Part shown: positions 54,401 through 64,000 of the stretch, in pieces
Position numbering within the stretch: position 1 is the first letter of the stretch
Layout of the letters: the number at the start of each line of letters is the position of its first letter
Source: a virus
IMG/VR virus record: IMGVR_UViG_3300008448_000063
Coordinates: 1-64,000 of that record
Length of the DNA: 64,000 nt
Direction: 5' to 3' (one strand)
Program-made: the position numbers and the translations under genes
Notes under the pieces: model-generated
Databases searched by the model: none
Told to the model about the DNA's origin: nothing
What the model saw: only the letters and a program-made list of their open reading frames with translations

Positions 54401-56726
54401 CAATGATTTCTTCAATTTTACCTGTTAACTGTGGAAGTAAGATTGTCTCAGTGTCATTGGATATTGTAAATCTTGGGGGATTGTTTAAATCATAATTTTG
54501 ACCTGAGTTTAAGACATTTATTTTTTCTATCTTTCCATAATAAATTTTGTCATAAGACTTATAGTTTTGCAGCTCTATACCATTTGCAAATATTCCTATT
54601 GGACCTGGAGCAGTTTCAATGGGTACAGTAGTAGAAACTAATGCTTTTGGAATTGCTTTTAAAGACTTGCTTGATGTCAGATCATTGTCATACAAATCAT
54701 TGTCTATTAACTTAAATGTACTAACATATCCAGAAACAGTATTATCTACTGGAGGATTAACTAATTCTACAAAACTTAAGTAAGAAGAAAGACCTACATT
54801 TTCTGGAGAATATGCTAATTTTATAGCAGAATCATTTACTTTTTTGACAAAGTAAGATATCCCAGTATTAACACCAACTATATTCTCATAAGTCCCTGAT
54901 GTAGTAAATCCTACTACAGTAATTTCCTCTCCATCATAAAAATTATGATCACCTATTAATGTTTGATAGTCAGAATCTGTAGTGAAGTCAAATTCTCTTT
55001 TATATGGTGATATTGCAAATCTTGGGAATCCATTTGAAGTTACATAATTATACTTTGAATCTGTATATGAATCTTGTACATCTGCAACAAATTTATTTTG
55101 AATTTCTGGATAATCCAGAGAGTTTGATTTAAATAACTTTCTTCTTGCTACTAAATTTTTTCCAACATAATCTGATAAAGTTGATGTGTCAAAGGAGAAT
55201 TGATACTTTTGATTAGATGATACTGAAACTAAAACATCTGCAGCAACTACTTCTTTAGTGTTTAAGATATAAAGATCTACACGATCTTTATCCTTTAAGT
55301 GATGTTTATACTTTGACTTGCATACTCCATCAAGTATTCCCACTCCATTGCGATTATTTAATCTTCTGAAAATTTTTCCACAATAAACTGTTGAGGGTAA
55401 ATTATACAGTAAAGAACCAGTGAAATCATTTTCTTCTAGATTTCCGAGATTTTCTATTTCAAAAGAATCACCATTATATGCATATCTTGCATTAGTATCA
55501 TCTAAATCAGACAATACATTTAAAACTCTTAGTTTAACTGGGAAATTCTGATCTCCATTTTCATAGGAGTAAACATAATTTTCGCCATATACCTCAGTGT
55601 TTGCTGAAATATCTACAGTTACTCCTGTACAGTTTAAAAACTGATTGTTGGTCTTATCTGTATAAGATACCTCCAGACCATTGATAATGACCTTTCCTGA
55701 GGGTTCAAACCCTATTGTAGAACTAACAAATATAGTTGTTGCCCCTGTAGCAACAGGTTCTACTACATATGTTTTTGGAGTGGAAACAAACTCTCCACTG
55801 ATAGCACCTTTTGGATTTAGATTATTTGAGTATCCAGAGAAGATATTGATTTTATAAAACTTCTTGTCTTTATAATAAAATCTACTTATATTGTAAATAG
55901 AACCATTTGCTGCTAAAATCTTACCATTAAAACTTGCATCTTGATATAAAGATTGACCTGTTATTTTTGTAGGATCTCCACTTACTGGTTCGCATACAAA
56001 TGTCTCACAAACTACCCATTTGTCATCTGAAGGTTTGAATGTATAATCAAATGGATTTATTACATCTACTTTTTCGTTAAAAAGAATTTTGAATAAGATT
56101 TTGTATGCACTATCAGTTCCTTTTGATTCATAGAATGATCTTAAATTTGAAATAAAGTTAGGAACATTAATTTCTGGAGCAAACTCTACTTCTTCAAATC
56201 CTGGGGCAAACTGATATTTTATCTTATGGAAGAACTCAAGTAAGAATAAGATGCTGAGGTTATTAACCACATCTTCTTCAAGATGTTCTGCTACTTCTGT
56301 TTGAGTAAACTTTAAAAATTCTTTATTAGAATCTTGATGCAAAGAATCTATTCCACTAAATCCTCTAATGCATCCAATAAAAGAAGTATTAGTTTTTTGT
56401 GTGTAAGTAATTATCTCATTATTAATCTTTAAAAGTCCATATGAGTCTGGCCATCCATCTGTGGAGTCAACATAGATCACATCATCAAAATAACCTACAT
56501 CCTGAGTTAAGTTAGTTTGAGATTGTAAATTGGCATTATCAAAACTTTCAATATTTTTATAATCCAGAAGATTTTCTACTAGATCAATAGGACCAGATTG
56601 AAATTCCTGAGAAATATAAAATTGTTTTAAAAACTCTACTAAGTTTGGATTTTCTGATACTAAAAATTCAGGTATGTGATTCTCAATGACATCACTAATT
56701 TTTACTACTTTATTTTCTTTATTCAT
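48486..56726 (-). CDS. Giant baseplate protein (gp7 position) with YHYH domain, 2746 aa
   Basis: The gene lies where T4 has gene 7, directly after gp6, but at 2,746 aa it is more than twice as long as T4 gp7 (1,032 aa). The N-terminal 250 residues with VVKISDVIENHIPEFLVSEN and FLKQFYISQEF look like a wedge-docking domain. Near residues 1225-1315 is a YHYH-type domain: HSPIIGWAYDGCPIYGP, then GDLDEHNGRFCITPE and GVYAYFCTM. At least six GY-type repeats are dispersed (for example KNKGQNYYNRISLQV, LNGGLGYSNNTAVKV and ISSGGAGYLQSPTIAL). It probably extends from the wedge as a fibre or adhesion module; that is inference. Confidence 0.88.
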   Translation of the reverse strand: MNKENKVVKISDVIENHIPEFLVSENPNLVEFLKQFYISQEFQSGPIDLVENLLDYKNIESFDNANLQSQTNLTQDVGYFDDVIYVDSTDGWPDSYGLLKINNEIITYTQKTNTSFIGCIRGFSGIDSLHQDSNKEFLKFTQTEVAEHLEEDVVNNLSILFLLEFFHKIKYQFAPGFEEVEFAPEINVPNFISNLRSFYESKGTDSAYKILFKILFNEKVDVINPFDYTFKPSDDKWVVCETFVCEPVSGDPTKITGQSLYQDASFNGKILAANGSIYNISRFYYKDKKFYKINIFSGYSNNLNPKGAISGEFVSTPKTYVVEPVATGATTIFVSSTIGFEPSGKVIINGLEVSYTDKTNNQFLNCTGVTVDISANTEVYGENYVYSYENGDQNFPVKLRVLNVLSDLDDTNARYAYNGDSFEIENLGNLEENDFTGSLLYNLPSTVYCGKIFRRLNNRNGVGILDGVCKSKYKHHLKDKDRVDLYILNTKEVVAADVLVSVSSNQKYQFSFDTSTLSDYVGKNLVARRKLFKSNSLDYPEIQNKFVADVQDSYTDSKYNYVTSNGFPRFAISPYKREFDFTTDSDYQTLIGDHNFYDGEEITVVGFTTSGTYENIVGVNTGISYFVKKVNDSAIKLAYSPENVGLSSYLSFVELVNPPVDNTVSGYVSTFKLIDNDLYDNDLTSSKSLKAIPKALVSTTVPIETAPGPIGIFANGIELQNYKSYDKIYYGKIEKINVLNSGQNYDLNNPPRFTISNDTETILLPQLTGKIEEIIVKDGGYDYADNVIPSFKVLGGGSNGKLNLDVKMRALPREIDFNSSSVGGVVDTTNNKFIFTTPHGLVNGEKVIYNSFNYTAVGIGSTSGDGGLTDGGAYYISNVGAGTSFGLTFTRNDARQGINTINLRTFGVGIHQFVTVEKKNSIESIKVSDENNTFKYKKVFCDYTGVNHYDNIFIINNHGFKKNDEVMYSYTESPVSGISTTSYYYVKVLDENEFQLKSSKTSSNVINFGSSNSSSIHYFEYSPIRVEIASRRFKKGAVGNDATLIPVGLGTVTDVLVARSKDEYGYNNILNLNDAPQVRELVGSQASIQLIVNNGIIQRAIVKNKGQNYYNRISLQVIGTGYGAVLEPVISNGEITEVKVLNGGLGYSNNTAVKVVALATGLKVSATIQSWTLNEIDKLGLENSSNGSLLGKKYSLFGNIYGLFFLNKELCDYYNIPKLRLNVNPSRHSPIIGWAYDGCPIYGPDAYANTDGTGGYRRLKSSYREKINRVSPTTFLFVEDYEFVEGLGDLDEHNGRFCITPEFPNGVYAYFCTMDRSRVPVFPYTIGNSFKYTPNDNNFNLRINQDLDFNSLGLVKHTAYYNLENKENYYEFIDFNSKFYEKDGIVVDASSGSIDNILVANGGSSYGIGNTVTFNNDGTNGFGALGEVSELKGVGISSITSSTTTLANIPLTYSLGRIYGYATDATSLISDSFVNISSISTSTYSSIEGYHKIKVSDKNASLIATLPNYSTTGPTTSIQIDGALGNFEIDDTFMLESETLTIIGLDYDNNLINVSRESGSPSYSIGEPLVPISNKFYFENKAKLDLPKRDSSYYFNPSQSVSSGFDPTVRNTLTLYPLGPGIEKTKDVKSGLIYLPNHKFVTGDKIVYTSSVVPLVTQDSYALDDTSNYPELFAIRVSNDLIALVNEKKKIKSLEQILLYDPSSLEDSALHKFTTDRNPVTASISLNETTVYTEKQHNLSLNDQVYLKVKSGITTTFNVTYSSANAKVLINSEVNPKINIYENDVVVFDLSSATLSECKFKLYSDPEFNNEYEGNQENGLEVVKNSTSLTLTISDNTPRVLYYNLTSDIEDIYSDTTVARNNTIVIDESFYSNKVLGITTYSGTSFVVNYPGTPERTSYGSSTSELDYFITSSNSYFGPINSVSLLSKGKNYEKLPKVEIVTASGKNADIIPLGNNIGKIQKSKIVNNQFILPSDKTLKPYSSLYSNLFVYDNYTVSGISISSGGAGYLQSPTIALYSKNKNKLVNNFSAISQIKNGVVENIVVTSPGYGLESTDDKLVFLDNSNGINILNASYSSGSDTATLTLKTPSTGFTTSNPLKIKIGDKIFVENVVSIKTVGATTSLYDGYNCFANNYEYFTVTGVNTAYGSKDAATVTYSIDYDPGVYSSSGTLVRSKDIPVVEVTLDRNSFLPNEGIRNKSSKILENPKNAPIQTNVKLTPLDKIKVGDVITGKISKSKATVERIETYSSTFNAKTSVTTEIGWKSNRGNTSEILQKLQDNDYYQLFSYALKSKVQMSDWESIAYEVAHIAGFKLFGNMVIESEQSPTIQNEAIDSAIVNVSLSSYADINTKYDFDLCTENVDDYNGSASDIINLNSKIISDYIVSKDNRVLSIDDISNLFDTDNPVVPFPIDTVPVYGSKYIFFIQASSSFLGNYVFPMFFEAFVTKDGDNVSITTYAVDDDSNMGTLIGEVDSNDSIVVSFSPKIGSVSYLVRAIREDFNLSGITTNYYGNNRNVGLTTSYAAEVTPTQKTIYSVPTADVSGGTLFVGIATTTSSIQDYREFTFLYDNGVVSNNNYTENIIVGLGTIGISTSGSNLLITYDGVPNTAVTVYTNMNFIHNTTVNPQEQESEFTRLNSGIVTFTGTALTDQEISRFSSDYAASKYVALIEKTVGVTTTKSIVSVDMVHYYADSYMKDITYGQLGDVDDINFVTSYDSINDEYVVSFTPSENADYVIKFFEKNISSIEI

Positions 56727-59974: not shown

Positions 59975-60145
59975 TTAATCCTCAATACTTATCGATTCTA
60001 CCATAATGTCCTCTGGTTTGGGAACCCCTGTCTCATAATATTGTTGAGACAGGTCATCCATTGTATCCATTAGATCTTCTTCGGAAAGATCTTTATAAAT
60101 CACTCTACCATTACAGAGAATATTATATAACTCTTGTTTTTTCAT
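59975..60145 (-). CDS. Small acidic protein, 56 aa
   Basis: The reading frame from ATG at 60145 gives MKKQELYNILCNGRVIYKDL, then an acidic SEEDLMDTMDDLSQQYYE segment and a C-terminus IMVESISIED. It overlaps the glycosyltransferase gene by 23 nt. I do not recognise it. The acidic helix resembles that of small regulatory or antirestriction-type proteins, but this is not evidence of function. Confidence 0.6.
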   Translation of the reverse strand: MKKQELYNILCNGRVIYKDLSEEDLMDTMDDLSQQYYETGVPKPEDIMVESISIED

Positions 60146-60884
60146 GTCCTACTCTGATCTTTGGATGACACCAAATTTCAAAATCACATTTACGAGTTGC
60201 ATCAAGACAGAATGATACATCCTCACCACACATATCCTGAACTTCACCAGAATCAAACACCTGCATCTGAGGTGCAAACCATGGATACTTCATTTCTGGA
60301 TGTTCAAACACACCCTTCTTGATCAGTACCCAACCAAAACCAGTATAATCAACAGTGAATGGTTTCTTTCTATTAGAGATAGTATCTACCATCTCATGAT
60401 TCATAACCCCACCATTGTTTTTAAAGTCTGCTTCATCTAACCAATGAGCAACTGATGTAGTTCTTCCATCCTCTGTAGCATACCATCCACAAGCAATGTC
60501 CTTATCCATCTGTACAAGACCCCAGAAGGCATCGCCACTGAACACAATGTCGCTATCAATCCAGAGTTGATAATCATACTCTAAACGACCTTGCCAAGGC
60601 AGTTGATCTGGTCCTGCCAATACATTTGCCCCAAGAACTTTACATCTTGCAAAGTTCACCATGGAAGAATAATCTTGAGAAATCTGAATCTTTGCGCCTG
60701 CCTGAACTAAATCAAAACACAACTGAACAAAGTTCTTCAGGAAAATATATGATACACCTCTTCCTGGAAGACAGAAAACTATACTCTTACCCCTAATTCG
60801 TTCCTTACACTCCTCAAGATTATAAAGTGGTTCTTCTTCGTCCTGAGAAGGATTTTTTGCTTTTACAGTAAATCCTTTTGCCAT
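60123..60884 (-). CDS. Glycosyltransferase-like protein (GT-A type)
   Basis: The protein has a Rossmann-like first half: KSIVFCLPGRGVSYIFLKNF near residues 33-52 (in part), then a helix and an IQISQDYSS strand. Near residues 107-113 is LWIDSDIVF, the DxD-type metal and nucleotide-sugar site of GT-A glycosyltransferases. Near residue 218 is GEDVSFC, a possible catalytic acidic motif. Such enzymes may modify host surface or phage DNA or proteins; the acceptor is unknown. The length is 253 aa. It has a sigma70-type promoter upstream. Confidence 0.75.
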   Translation of the reverse strand: MAKGFTVKAKNPSQDEEEPLYNLEECKERIRGKSIVFCLPGRGVSYIFLKNFVQLCFDLVQAGAKIQISQDYSSMVNFARCKVLGANVLAGPDQLPWQGRLEYDYQLWIDSDIVFSGDAFWGLVQMDKDIACGWYATEDGRTTSVAHWLDEADFKNNGGVMNHEMVDTISNRKKPFTVDYTGFGWVLIKKGVFEHPEMKYPWFAPQMQVFDSGEVQDMCGEDVSFCLDATRKCDFEIWCHPKIRVGHEKTRVI

Positions 60885-60922
60885 AAAATTTTCAAAGATT
60901 GATGTACGTAGGTATCACACCA

Positions 60923-60951
60923 ATGATACTACCTTATTTATCTGCTGTCAA
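60923..60951 (-). promoter_or_regulatory. Sigma70-type promoter for the glycosyltransferase
   Basis: The minus strand has a perfect TTGACA (60946-60951), a 17-nt spacer and TATCAT (60923-60928), 39 nt upstream of the ATG. A GATAAATA lies within its spacer. Confidence 0.6.
60935..60942 (-). promoter_or_regulatory. Late-type promoter (GATAAATA), within sigma70 spacer
   Basis: GATAAATA on the minus strand, one mismatch from TATAAATA, 50 nt upstream of the glycosyltransferase ATG. It lies entirely between the -35 and -10 of the sigma70-type promoter. Confidence 0.4.
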
Positions 60952-61187
60952 CTGGTCTTCTTATCTTTATGCTTTAAATATTTTTCTACTGCTTTAGCTC
61001 CACTACGACTGACAACTAGTTTATTAATTTCTTTCTTCTTTGGTTTCCCTGCTGGTCCCTCATACTTCTGTAAGGTATAAGATGAACCACCCTCACTATC
61101 CCTCACAAAAGATCCAGGAACAGCATGTGGAGGTTCATAAGACTTCTTACCTTCGCAAATGTCGTAAAATTCCCTGAATGTAATCAT
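60948..61187 (-). CDS. Small basic protein with capsid-targeting-like leader, 79 aa
   Basis: The N-terminus MITFREFYDICEG resembles the T4 capsid-targeting leader (hydrophobic/aromatic residues at fixed spacing), and ICE fits the (L/I)xE cleavage rule. After cleavage the remaining 68 residues would be strongly basic and Lys-rich (KPKKKEINK and a C-terminus with KYLKHKDKK), like T4 internal proteins. I choose ATG at 61187 because AAAGGAG is 6 nt from it but only 3 nt from the ATG at 61190. A GATAAATA late-type element lies 19 nt upstream. An internal head protein is the best guess. Confidence 0.7.
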   Translation of the reverse strand: MITFREFYDICEGKKSYEPPHAVPGSFVRDSEGGSSYTLQKYEGPAGKPKKKEINKLVVSRSGAKAVEKYLKHKDKKTS

Positions 61188-61206
61188 CATTAACTCCTTT
61201 AAAAAA

Positions 61207-61214
61207 TATTTATC
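61207..61214 (-). promoter_or_regulatory. Late-type promoter (GATAAATA), leader-bearing protein
   Basis: GATAAATA on the minus strand, one mismatch from TATAAATA, 19 nt upstream of the ATG at 61187. Late expression would suit a head protein. Confidence 0.45.
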
Positions 61215-61257
61215 AAATGCAAGAGATAACCCCCATAATGTAAGAGACTTACCGCCA

Positions 61258-61563
61258 CTATTCTAAAAGGTCACTAATCTCTTCAAGTTCCTCTAAAGTC
61301 ATTGGATAAGTCTTCACCTTACCAGTCTCAATATCATCTGCCAGTTGTATCAGATATTCCAGAAACTCCTTGGGAAGTGTTTCATCTTCATTGAGTGTTG
61401 CCCAGAACCATTCATAACACTCTGTGTAAGGGTCATCCTCCTTCAATAGGGCATATCCCTCATAATTGCCTGTAAGAAGGTCTCCCCAGATCTTATAGGC
61501 ACCTCTGATAGATTGCCACCCAGTCATCCAACAATGCCCTATCCAATACTCAAACCAATTCAT
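61258..61563 (-). CDS. Hypothetical protein, 101 aa
   Basis: The N-terminus is rich in aromatic residues: NWFEYWIGHCWMTGWQS, with W at positions 3, 7, 12 and 16. An acidic helical half follows, ending TLEELEEISDLL. The amphipathic start might touch a membrane, but there is no clear transmembrane stretch. It overlaps the upstream gene by four bases. I do not recognise the family. Confidence 0.65.
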   Translation of the reverse strand: MNWFEYWIGHCWMTGWQSIRGAYKIWGDLLTGNYEGYALLKEDDPYTECYEWFWATLNEDETLPKEFLEYLIQLADDIETGKVKTYPMTLEELEEISDLLE

Positions 61564-61721
61564 CCTTTTTCTACCTCACAAACAATCACAAATTCTTCTA
61601 CCTGAAAATTAGTTGATAATCCTGCACTAATCATCTGGGAGATACCCGTGAGACATTTTCTACACTCAGACATAGTACCCTCACAAAATACCCTGTCCCT
61701 TGCAATCAACTTATAGACCAT
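61560..61721 (-). CDS. Hypothetical protein, 53 aa
   Basis: From ATG at 61721 the product begins MVYKLIARDRVFCEGTMSEC and ends VIVCEVEKG. It has four Cys, two of them in a C-x-x-x-C-x3-type cluster near residues 13-24. The open frame extends upstream to 61760, but that part is low-complexity, so I prefer the internal ATG. It is coupled to the 101-aa gene. Function unknown. Confidence 0.6.
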   Translation of the reverse strand: MVYKLIARDRVFCEGTMSECRKCLTGISQMISAGLSTNFQVEEFVIVCEVEKG

Positions 61722-61959
61722 TTTTTTCTGGGAAAATTTTTTTCCTATAATAGGATCCAATTATATTTAAGGTCTCCCACAGGCAAACTCTAATATACTC
61801 AAATTCCTCAAAAAGGTCCAGGGCATTTTTTACCAGGGAAAAATTTTTTTTATAAACTTGATATCGTTCATGCATTTTGTCACCTCTGTAGGTTAGGGAT
61901 GTTTGTGATTTTCGCATTACCCAACCCAACAACACAATAACCCCCACAATACCTGCCAA
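61711..61959 (-). CDS. Possible small protein, 82 aa (doubtful)
   Basis: The frame starts MAGIVGVIVLLGWVMRKSQTS, which could be a signal anchor, and continues with helical, basic sequence. It overlaps the next gene by 11-50 nt depending on the start. Part of it covers an A/T-rich element that is repeated just downstream, so it may be partly non-coding leader. An internal start at residue 29 (MHERYQVYK) is possible. I keep it with low confidence. Confidence 0.35.
   Translation of the reverse strand: MAGIVGVIVLLGWVMRKSQTSLTYRGDKMHERYQVYKKNFSLVKNALDLFEEFEYIRVCLWETLNIIGSYYRKKIFPEKNGL
61728..61851. repeat. Two copies of an A/T-tract element
   Basis: CTGGGAAAATTTTTTT (61728-61743) and CCAGGGAAAAATTTTTTTT (61833-61851) are near copies 107 nt apart. 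On the minus strand each has an A7-8 T4-5 CCC core and lies 7-8 nt before an ATG (61721 and 61826). The first is joined to the palindrome CCTATAATAGG (61744-61754). They might be promoter or leader elements. Confidence 0.5.
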
Positions 61960-62393
61960 TTCACTATATCACAGGACTGCACATCTGTCAAGTGTCATAT
62001 ACACTGATTCTCACACATATCACACTGTCTTATACACAGTTTTCCACAGGTTTCTTATACTTTTTCCACAAGTTTTCCACAGTTTTCTTATAGTTTTCCA
62101 CAGGCAAATTCACTGGGTTTTGGTATAAACATAGATGGGCACTGTGTTTTCACTGTTTTATACTTAAGACCTGTGGAAAACTATTCACTGTGCCACTAAT
62201 TGTACTGGGAGGGGGTGCTTGACAGGGGGGAGAGTTTGTGATACAATGGGGGCCAAGATCACAACAAGATGCACCATTTATTCACACATTCTCTAGACTG
62301 ATTATACACAGTGATTAATAGGTAGATTACACAGTTGATTCACACTTTTTCCACAGAATTAACACAACCTGTGGAAAACTCAACTACATTTAT
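61960..62393. other. Candidate replication origin: DnaA-box cluster in non-coding region
   Basis: This 434-nt stretch has no supported gene. It contains TTTTCCACA at 62040-62048, 62062-62070, 62073-62081, 62094-62102 and 62347-62355, and the same box in reverse at 62172-62180 and 62370-62378. TTATNCACA boxes lie at 62030-62038, 62278-62286 and 62302-62310. TTTTCCACA is the known cyanobacterial DnaA box form and TTATNCACA the E. coli form. A plus-strand sigma70-type promoter (62219-62247) and four G-tracts (62207-62252) lie between the left and right groups. The layout resembles a replicon origin; use by the phage is inference. Confidence 0.65.
62219..62247 (+). promoter_or_regulatory. Plus-strand sigma70-type promoter inside the DnaA-box cluster
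   Basis: A perfect TTGACA (62219-62224), a 17-nt spacer and TACAAT (62242-62247; one mismatch) on the plus strand. It faces away from the reading direction of every gene here and is followed by no plus-strand gene. It could make an antisense or origin-priming RNA. Confidence 0.5.
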
Positions 62394-62654
62394 TTACACA
62401 TTTATTTGATTTTCAACATATTCCACGGAATACCCATTTGACCACTGATTGACATCAAACTTATCTTCTACCATGTATAGCAACTCACTCACATAAGACC
62501 ATTCTAACCATGCTGTACTTTTCTGTTCTTCAGTTACACATTGATCAATCAGTTGTTTACAATGATCTTTATAAAGTTCAATGGAATTGATGATCCTTTG
62601 TGCATCCTCTTGACATAACTCAATCTGGAAAACTTTGTTAGTCTTGATTATCAT
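62394..62654 (-). CDS. Hypothetical protein, 86 aa
   Basis: The sequence is helical: FQIELCQEDAQRIINSIELY near residues 9-28, a Cys at 13, 33 and 39, and a C-terminal part WSYVSELLYMVEDKF. It starts by an ATGA overlap with the stop of the 41-aa gene, so the two are translated together. I do not recognise a function. It is the last gene before the origin-like region. Confidence 0.65.
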   Translation of the reverse strand: MIIKTNKVFQIELCQEDAQRIINSIELYKDHCKQLIDQCVTEEQKSTAWLEWSYVSELLYMVEDKFDVNQWSNGYSVEYVENQINV

Positions 62655-62776
62655 TTGTTTTTGATCTTGTTAATAGCAGTGGTGATAGATGTAGTCAGGA
62701 GAATACAAACATCATTCTGGAAGATAGCATACACAGGTTGTTTGGATTGAATGTCGAAAGTGTACTTAATGGTCAT
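62651..62776 (-). CDS. Small protein downstream of tandem leader, 41 aa
   Basis: A 41-residue product: MTIKYTFDIQSKQPVYAIFQ, then NDVCILLTTSITTAINKIKNK. It looks like two or three strands and a C-terminal helix. It has no ribosome-binding site; the upstream sequence is ACAAACAAAATG. It is preceded by two perfect 61-nt repeats, which end 18 nt before its ATG and occupy almost the whole leader, and it is coupled to the 86-aa gene. Function unknown; its control by the leader is a hypothesis. Confidence 0.6.
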   Translation of the reverse strand: MTIKYTFDIQSKQPVYAIFQNDVCILLTTSITTAINKIKNK

Positions 62777-62794
62777 TTTGTTTGTTGTTAGTTG

Positions 62795-62921
62795 TTGATG
62801 GATTAAGTGTGATTATGCCTCATCAGGACATAGCAGGGACTTAACCTCTATCTTATTGATGGATTAAGTGTGATTATGCCTCATCAGGACATAGCAGGGA
62901 CTTAACCTCTATCTTATTGAT
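62795..62921 (-). repeat. Two perfect 61-nt tandem repeats, structured leader RNA candidate
   Basis: Copies at 62795-62855 and 62856-62916 are identical, followed by 5 nt of a third. They fill the 154-nt gap between two genes. On the minus strand each copy folds as GGTTAAGT paired with ACTTAATCC (one bulge) around an inner hairpin ATGTCCT-GATG-AGGCAT (one bulge). The two internal loops (CCCTGC and AATCAC) are unpaired and could bind something. Tandem structured leaders are typical of some riboswitches. Confidence 0.75.
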
Positions 62922-62930
62922 AAATGGGAA

Positions 62931-63263
62931 TCAGTTTTCTTCTTTGTGCATATCAATCATCATTTCATTGATCTCATCATGATTGATCAATTTGCTGTCC
63001 CAGGAAACATCATCAGCAGTGGTGAGTTTATCAATGTTTACCATGTTCCTGATGAACTTTTGGTAAGGAGTTTCATTGTCAGAAACATACTCTACACATG
63101 CAACAGCAGTGTTATACAGAAAAGGTTGATTCTGGATCCACAGGGATACATTCCAGGTTTCATAATTTGCCCAACCATTATAGGTTTGATTGATGGTTTG
63201 TGTGGTTTGATTGATGGTTTGCATGGTTTGAAGTTGTTTCTCAACCTTTGATACATGTATCAT
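62931..63263 (-). CDS. DUF7249-like protein, 110 aa
   Basis: The core YNGWANYETWNVSLWIQN near residues 28-45 matches a small phage and archaeal-virus family I associate with DUF7249, of unknown function. Before it, residues 14-27 are a QTINQTTQTINQT run encoded by a 21-nt tandem repeat. The frame stays open to an ATG at 63326, but I prefer ATG at 63263 because the extra part holds an 8-bp hairpin (63295-63316), which suits a leader. The C-terminus is acidic, ending MIDMHKEEN. Coordinates of the start are uncertain. Confidence 0.65.
   Translation of the reverse strand: MIHVSKVEKQLQTMQTINQTTQTINQTYNGWANYETWNVSLWIQNQPFLYNTAVACVEYVSDNETPYQKFIRNMVNIDKLTTADDVSWDSKLINHDEINEMMIDMHKEEN
63249..63262. 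promoter_or_regulatory. 14-bp perfect palindrome
   Basis: TGATACATGTATCA is a perfect 14-bp palindrome that sits over the first codons of the DUF7249-like gene start at 63263. It could be an operator, or simply codons 1-5 by chance. Confidence 0.35.
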
Positions 63264-63294
63264 ACCACAGATTGAGGGGTTTCGGTAAATGTTA

Positions 63295-63316
63295 GTGCCA
63301 CTTTGATTAGTGGCAC
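63295..63316 (-). promoter_or_regulatory. Perfect 8-bp hairpin in leader
   Basis: GTGCCACT, a 6-nt loop, AGTGGCAC: a perfect inverted repeat between the stop of the 70-aa gene (63334) and the start of the DUF7249-like gene. No T-tract follows, so it is more likely a regulatory stem or processing site than a terminator. Confidence 0.5.
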
Positions 63317-63333
63317 ATGATGTCATTTAGTGA

Positions 63334-63546
63334 TCAGAAATCAAAATCATCAGCATAATCATTGTCCATGATGTAGGCATCAGTAGGATACTCTGCGGAA
63401 ACTTCATCTTCTACATCAACCACAGGAACTTGATCCTCTTGAGTGTCAATAACTGCATCAAGAATTTCAAGAAGTTGATTGCCATCTTGTGCTTTGGCGA
63501 GCATAGACAGAGCAACAACTTTAGGCATCGAAAGAGTAGCAGTCAT
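63334..63546 (-). CDS. Hypothetical acidic protein, 70 aa
   Basis: From ATG at 63546 the product is MTATLSMPKVVALSMLAKAQ, then DGNQLLEILDAVI and an acidic C-terminus ending DNDYADDFDF. The frame is open upstream to 63672, but the extra 42 residues are Ser/Thr/His/Cys-rich and atypical, and the ATG at 63546 is preceded by the same A-rich context (AAAACAAATG) as the 41-aa gene. I recall similar 70-aa proteins in cyanophages. Function unknown; the acidic tail could mimic nucleic acid. Confidence 0.6.
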   Translation of the reverse strand: MTATLSMPKVVALSMLAKAQDGNQLLEILDAVIDTQEDQVPVVDVEDEVSAEYPTDAYIMDNDYADDFDF

Positions 63547-63625
63547 TTGTTTTGAAAGAGTGAAACAGTGGTGCAACTTGAGGGTTGCAGAGAATCCACC
63601 AAGGTGGAAGGATTCAGTGCAACTA

Positions 63626-64000
63626 TCAGAAGTTTTTGTGGAAGATGTATCCATCAACAAAGGAGAAATCATACCTCAGATTTACATTCCAGGTAGCACT
63701 CCAATCAATCACAACTGGCATATCTTGCAGACTGTTAGGATAGCAGTCATTTACAAATTGCTCTGCAAATTGTTCCTCACTGTCATACTGTCCATAATAG
63801 GCATCAGTGAAATGTGCAATGCACTCAATACCAAACTCATCTACAAATGCATCAACTACCTCATAAGAATAGTCCTCACCATTCTCTACATATTCCTCAT
63901 AATAAGCAAGGAAGTTTTCTTCCCCATGCTCACTGATGAAGACCAACATATCCTCATCATAATAGTTTTGCTCTTTCAGTTCATCAATTTTTGCCTGAAC
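63626..64000 (-). CDS. ArdA-like antirestriction protein (5' end outside window)
   Basis: The open frame runs to the window edge, so the start is missing and 124 residues are visible. The segment FTDAYYGQYDSEEQFAEQFV near residues 64-83 fits the ArdA pattern F-x-x-x-Y-x-G-x-Y-x-S-x-x-x-F-A, and the C-terminus WSATWNVNLRYDF...VDGYIF fits the ArdA ending. ArdA is an elongated acidic DNA mimic that blocks type I restriction enzymes. The visible part is strongly acidic (many D and E). Assignment is by pattern; the full gene is needed for certainty. Confidence 0.65.
   Translation of the reverse strand, partial: VQAKIDELKEQNYYDEDMLVFISEHGEENFLAYYEEYVENGEDYSYEVVDAFVDEFGIECIAHFTDAYYGQYDSEEQFAEQFVNDCYPNSLQDMPVVIDWSATWNVNLRYDFSFVDGYIFHKNF

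Follow-up and report, generated by a model that had tools for sequence, protein, structure and literature searches.

The box array and its setting

The window analyzed here is a stretch of 64,000 nucleotides, positions 1-64,000 of the IMG/VR virus record IMGVR_UViG_3300008448_000063, the whole record having 69,181 bases. The genome is T4-like, as a preliminary description of this DNA had it, with homologues of gp41, UvsX, gp43, gp44, gp45, gp46, UvsW, gp25, and gp6. The intergenic region 61960-62393, in which the longest ORF has at most 33 aa, contains seven exact copies of TTTTCCACA, five forward and two reverse, and three DnaA boxes of the E. coli form (TTATNCACA). These site counts and the gene-free character of the stretch, both noted in the preliminary description, were confirmed by the motif count and the ORF lengths. 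The whole set of ten sites spans 62030-62378, and the elements of the region are given below, with conservation measured as column identity in 18 relatives.

61963..61968, minus strand: leftward promoter -10 (TATAGT, with TGTGA before it), sigma-70-type; conserved 0.89 versus 0.49 in the spacer
61986..61991, minus strand: leftward promoter -35 (TTGACA), directed toward the gene 25/6 side; conserved 0.91
62030..62038, plus strand: TTATACACA, E. coli-form DnaA box; weakly conserved, identity 0.57 in relatives
62040..62048, plus strand: TTTTCCACA box 1 of array 1, exact motif
62062..62070, plus strand: TTTTCCACA box 2, 22 nt after box 1
62073..62081, plus strand: TTTTCCACA box 3, 11 nt after box 2, leaving a 2-nt gap; column identity 0.99 in the 18 relatives
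62094..62102, plus strand: TTTTCCACA box 4, 21 nt after box 3
62103..62171, no strand: spacer between the convergent boxes 4 and 5, of near-fixed length, with CACTG repeats
62172..62180, minus strand: TTTTCCACA box 5, facing array 1
62219..62224, plus strand: rightward promoter -35 (TTGACA), opposite to all genes; conserved 0.94
62242..62247, plus strand: rightward promoter -10 (TACAAT); conserved 0.84
62251..62262, plus strand: GGCCAAGATCAC element, presumed start of the rightward transcript, its core nearly invariant in relatives; CAAGATCAC, listed with this element, occurs once in the genome
62278..62286, plus strand: TTATTCACA, E. coli-form box of array 2, motif match
62302..62310, plus strand: TTATACACA, E. 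coli-form box of array 2, motif match
62347..62355, plus strand: TTTTCCACA box 6, left member of a convergent pair; identity 0.89 versus 0.54 between the pair
62370..62378, minus strand: TTTTCCACA box 7, right member of the pair, 23 nt from box 6

The exact motif count gave eight copies of TTTTCCACA in the window, seven of them clustered at 62040-62378. The eighth, at 55374, is the sole copy outside the array in the whole 69,181-base record, the remaining 5 kb having no additional one; the earlier remark that no other copy was noticed in the window, made after a search declared non-exhaustive, has to be amended by this one site. In 100 dinucleotide shuffles of the window TTTTCCACA occurred 1.6 times on average and at most 5 times, and since this maximum applies to an entire 64 kb, seven copies in 340 nt far exceed what chance would give (a Poisson estimate puts it at roughly 1e-14). 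Boxes are thus far denser in the array than elsewhere in the genome, not equally dense. Chance clustering is also ruled out by the reversed motif, for which the same kind of scan as in the relatives gave only 17 matches in the complete IMG/VR collection. The E. coli form shows no overall excess (five sites in the window versus 5.2 expected), with three of the five, at 62030, 62278, and 62302, lying inside the array.

The order of boxes at the left is as follows: four forward boxes (offsets 0, 22, 33, and 54), the spacer, and one opposing box at 132. Array 1 is flanked by two divergent sigma-70-type promoters with 11/12 matches, 17-nt spacers, and a TG extension. The rightward promoter points against all nearby genes and has no conserved ORF downstream; no terminator was found downstream of it, and Rfam gave no RNA family in 60000-64000. 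R-loop-friendly G-richness was not counted as support, because the G runs are mostly upstream of the presumed start.

On the other side, the leftward promoter sits right at the listed TTG start (61959) of the gene 61711-61959, and the homologue of this gene in phage P-TIM68 suggests a later start, at the methionine of MRK.

Occurrence and conservation in related phages

Two kinds of survey were carried out. The first was blind to the boxes and used IMG/VR loci encoding the neighboring protein 60123-60884. Among close relatives with enough upstream sequence, 11 of 14 have 4-7 boxes per 300-nt window, located 0.7-2.2 kb upstream, and in more distant relatives an array is present in only one of 36 tested. 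One close relative (L011) retains both promoters and the GGCCAAGATCAC element with eroded boxes, and an ORF resembling a GIY-YIG homing endonuclease is inserted within its box array (960-1334). We infer that the array is under selection in the phages that have it, yet dispensable in some lineages.

The second survey, two pattern scans of IMG/VR for three or more boxes with no gene criterion, identified at least 222 loci. Among the matches listed, 155 of the 222 carry cyanomyovirus homologues at two or more places; short contigs and other phages make up the remaining 67. Gene 6 is present in 85 of the cyanomyovirus loci listed, and in every one of them the array lies upstream of this gene, at a distance of 2.7-10.3 kb, and never downstream. 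The arrays of the relatives tend to lie outside coding sequence, the fraction inside ORFs of at least 60 aa being 0.30 versus 0.73 overall. In cultured phages, sites occur mostly in unannotated stretches of S-PM2, S-RIM32, S-CAM1, S-CAM3, Syn1, S-RIM44, and S-MbCM6. P-TIM68 retains a convergent pair in the 646-nt gap adjoining the homologue of the window gene 61711-61959, and in Syn9 a convergent TTTTCCACA pair, spaced by 24 nt, remains at a distance of 6 kb upstream of gp6. The cluster thus recurs at the syntenic place in many cyanophages but is absent from several cyanomyoviruses: neither box form makes up an array in P-SSM2, S-CAM7, S-SSM7, ACG-2014f, or S-RSM4, nor in T4. Arrays of degenerate boxes that might substitute for it in T4 or in cyanophages without TTTTCCACA arrays were sought as well, and none was found.

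Within the region, boxes at 62073, 62347, and 62370, which were not alignment anchors, are 0.86-0.99 identical in the 18 relatives versus 0.54-0.66 in the surrounding sequence. The outer boxes at 62040 (0.63) and 62062 (0.54) differ in number and orientation among relatives, and conservation of the E. coli-form boxes in the array is weak, for instance at 62030. The promoter hexamers are conserved at 0.84-0.94 versus 0.49-0.74 for the promoter spacers in the same 18 sequences, which were selected partly by the rightward promoter and the CAAGATCAC element; L011, not selected that way, also has both. Over a larger set, 82 of 100 arrays have a promoter no farther than 300 nt away, versus 19% of control windows, and a strict promoter pattern is found at 70 of 100 versus 8%. 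The pentamer CACTG/CAGTG is about ten-fold denser in 61960-62393 than in the whole record, recurs in the relatives, and possibly represents sites for a second protein.

Some CACTG/CAGTG copies are about 10 bp apart. In one record of S-PM2 (NC_006820, 19177-19333) the array overlaps annotated tRNA-Asn and tRNA-Leu genes, an annotation that looks doubtful; a second record (LN828717) leaves the stretch unannotated. Arrays of the E. coli form (three TTATCCACA in about 90 nt) are common in IMG/VR, for instance loci L502-L581 among the matches listed, and therefore phages that infect other hosts may widely carry DnaA-box arrays. Eight places resembling the TTTTCCACA array query were seen in MZ089777.1 (Microvirus mar31).

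Spacing rules and the probable link to host DnaA

The distances between boxes follow the helical turn of DNA. In 138 distinct clusters, same-strand spacings peak at 11-12, 21-22, 32-33, 42-43, and 53-54 bp, with a vector strength of 0.77 at 10.75 bp. Convergent spacings, measured in loci chosen on other grounds, have maxima at 13, 23, 34-35, 45, 56, 77-79, 99-100, and 110-111, that is, in steps of about 11 bp. Boxes 4 and 5 are offset by 78 or 79 in the relatives of the window; in another subgroup the offset is 56, shorter by about two helical turns. Because related sequences are not independent, all these statistics are descriptions rather than formal tests.

The identification of TTTTCCACA as the cyanobacterial form of the DnaA box, made in the preliminary description, is borne out by the literature (PMC4674748, PMC3480399). 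The domain IV of the Cyanothece DnaA bound two TTTTCCACA separated by 2 nt better than it bound an imperfect pair with a 10-nt spacing (PMC4674748), and boxes 2 and 3 of the window share this 2-nt gap. When a genome collection was scanned for a phage-like arrangement of three boxes, many bacteria matched, and 28 cyanobacterial loci were examined further; judged from sequence, 15 of them lie beside a protein read as DnaN and 11 beside one read as DnaA. Same-strand spacings in these dnaN/dnaA-linked arrays match those of the phages. Their orientation differs: host arrays are mostly divergent, phage arrays mostly convergent, and the phage array therefore obeys the same rules without being a simple copy of the host's. 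No DnaA domain was detected in 14 cyanophage records, whereas the controls gave positives in 10 of 14 genomes, Synechococcus elongatus among them. With no DnaA gene in these phage records, host DnaA is the expected ligand.

The array thus shares with the oriC of S. elongatus, Anabaena, and Cyanothece the box sequence TTTTCCACA, the same-strand spacings of 11-12, 21-22, 32-33, and 53-54 bp, and the intergenic clustering. It differs from them in lacking a neighboring dnaN or dnaA, in the mostly converging boxes, and in the strong sigma-70 promoters at its flanks; in addition, no unwinding element was found in the phage window. The segment 62181-62250 in fact exceeds the genome mean in stability (z about -3), and the rise in instability across 88 arrays is slight (median quantile 0.21). 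In S-PM2 and P-TIM68, extremely AT-rich DNA, among the least stable 0.04% of the genome, lies within 500 nt of the array. Inspection by eye revealed nothing obvious in the way of DnaA-trio repeats beside a box, and GC skew in Syn9, P-TIM68, S-PM2, and two IMG/VR contigs is monotonic, tracks the coding strand, and marks no origin. As an unstable unwinding element is absent in the window, we describe the array as working like an oriC rather than file it as one.

A candidate replication origin and its alternatives

Since it is spaced like the host origin and recurs at one genome position across many related cyanophages, the array is probably the place where these phages recruit host DnaA. We consider it moderately likely that the stretch is a host-DnaA assembly site copying the spacing rules of the cyanobacterial oriC, and most likely the starting origin of the phage. 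The preliminary description had proposed, as one of two possibilities beside titration, recruitment of host DnaA for the first round of copying; the boxes, their density, the synteny, the oriC-like spacing, and the lack of a detected phage DnaA all favor this proposal, with DnaA binding and initiation as its predicted steps. Less easily accommodated are the ordinary stability of the window array, the uninformative GC skew, the patchy distribution (11/14 close versus 1/36 distant relatives), the persistence of both promoters in L011 with eroded boxes and the GIY-YIG insertion, and the convergence of phage arrays where host arrays tend to diverge.

Under this scheme, host RNA polymerase would fire the array-flanking promoters soon after infection, and host DnaA would assemble as a filament on the convergent boxes with their helical phasing. 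The filament could help to open the DNA between or beside the boxes, where the phage helicase and polymerase (gp41, gp43, and partners) may load and perform a first, theta-like round of copying. The T4-type recombination-dependent replication would take over afterwards, the phage having UvsX and gp46. A broader proposal, for which we see the chances as evenly balanced, is that replication in many T4-like cyanophages starts via host DnaA at a single theta origin, an oriC mimic located upstream of the baseplate genes, and that the lineages without an array lost or replaced it.

In bacteria, DnaA also serves as a transcription factor, and this role, together with the position of array 1 between two near-consensus, conserved divergent promoters and the presence of promoters at 82% of arrays, would suit a control region, in which DnaA bound between the promoters turns early transcription up or down but initiates no replication. 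We regard this as unlikely: the rightward promoter drives no conserved ORF, and hence there is little to regulate on that side, the promoters of L011 persist without intact boxes, and the oriC-like spacing of many boxes is more than a simple operator needs. Decidedly unlikely is a decoy that titrates host DnaA and halts replication of the host chromosome like a mobile datA. Its boxes are of high quality and closely paired, their copy number would climb during infection, and the match to the spacing of the host oriC means that it could compete well. However, a decoy needs neither a fixed position, which is constant in 85/85 among the matches listed, nor flanking promoters, which are enriched, and at most about ten boxes per genome would be available at the start of infection; constant position and flanking promoters speak against pure titration. 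It is very improbable that the motif merely resembles DnaA boxes, its real ligand being a phage protein or a different host factor, as might be read from the convergent pairs at 13-14 bp, not seen in host arrays, and from the ten-fold enrichment of CACTG/CAGTG, given the exact identity to the cyanobacterial DnaA box and same-strand spacing equal to that of dnaN/dnaA-linked arrays.

The candidate origin can be compared with several known systems. T4 uses R-loops at several origins. Like the array, T4 oriF (ori(uvsY)) has a promoter whose RNA could prime and is annotated beside the baseplate gene 25, the window array being upstream of genes 25 and 6; however, T4 has no DnaA-box array, and oriF is on the 3' side of gene 25 whereas the array is about 3 kb away on the 5' side. 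The origins of DnaA-dependent temperate phages and plasmids (P1 oriR and similar) also have host DnaA boxes in a non-chromosomal replicon, but they use their own initiator and iterons, of which none was identified in the window, though CACTG repeats are enriched there. The datA locus of E. coli titrates DnaA with boxes clustered away from the initiation site; it shares the clustering, but is not known to be phage-borne or to have divergent promoters of this kind alongside.

A single theta origin was earlier predicted for cyanophage Syn9, as mentioned in PMC2984593 with reference to the Syn9 genome paper. Syn9 belongs to the same phage group and has the convergent TTTTCCACA pair. Given this prediction, origin use in the group would come as only a partial surprise, which qualifies the earlier suggestion that recruitment of DnaA for replication would be new there. 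In the open literature, the original Syn9 genome paper aside, no description of DnaA boxes in T4-like cyanophages was found. DnaA-dependent origins as such are already known; a T4-like phage clade relying on one would be a novelty. Cyanomyoviruses abound in oceans and lakes, and the start of their replication has so far been assumed to follow T4. A conserved site for host DnaA would tie the first copying round of the phage to a host factor and to the replication state of the host, and in S-PM2, Syn1, and other cultured phages the array provides a precise, testable candidate origin.

Several other features were seen near the array. A perfect tandem repeat with a 61-nt unit (2.1 copies, 62795-62921 of the window) lies between small early genes. 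The minus strand of 63626-64126 in the record gives a weak, sub-threshold match to the antirestriction protein ArdA (E 0.0007). Further on, at 64052-67994 of the record (4052-7994 of L009), a repeated TATCATACATGTATG-type sequence overlaps the starts of several small ORFs; it has eight near-exact matches versus 0.03 expected, some with a TTGACT-like -35 before them, and looks like a shared early promoter/start module.
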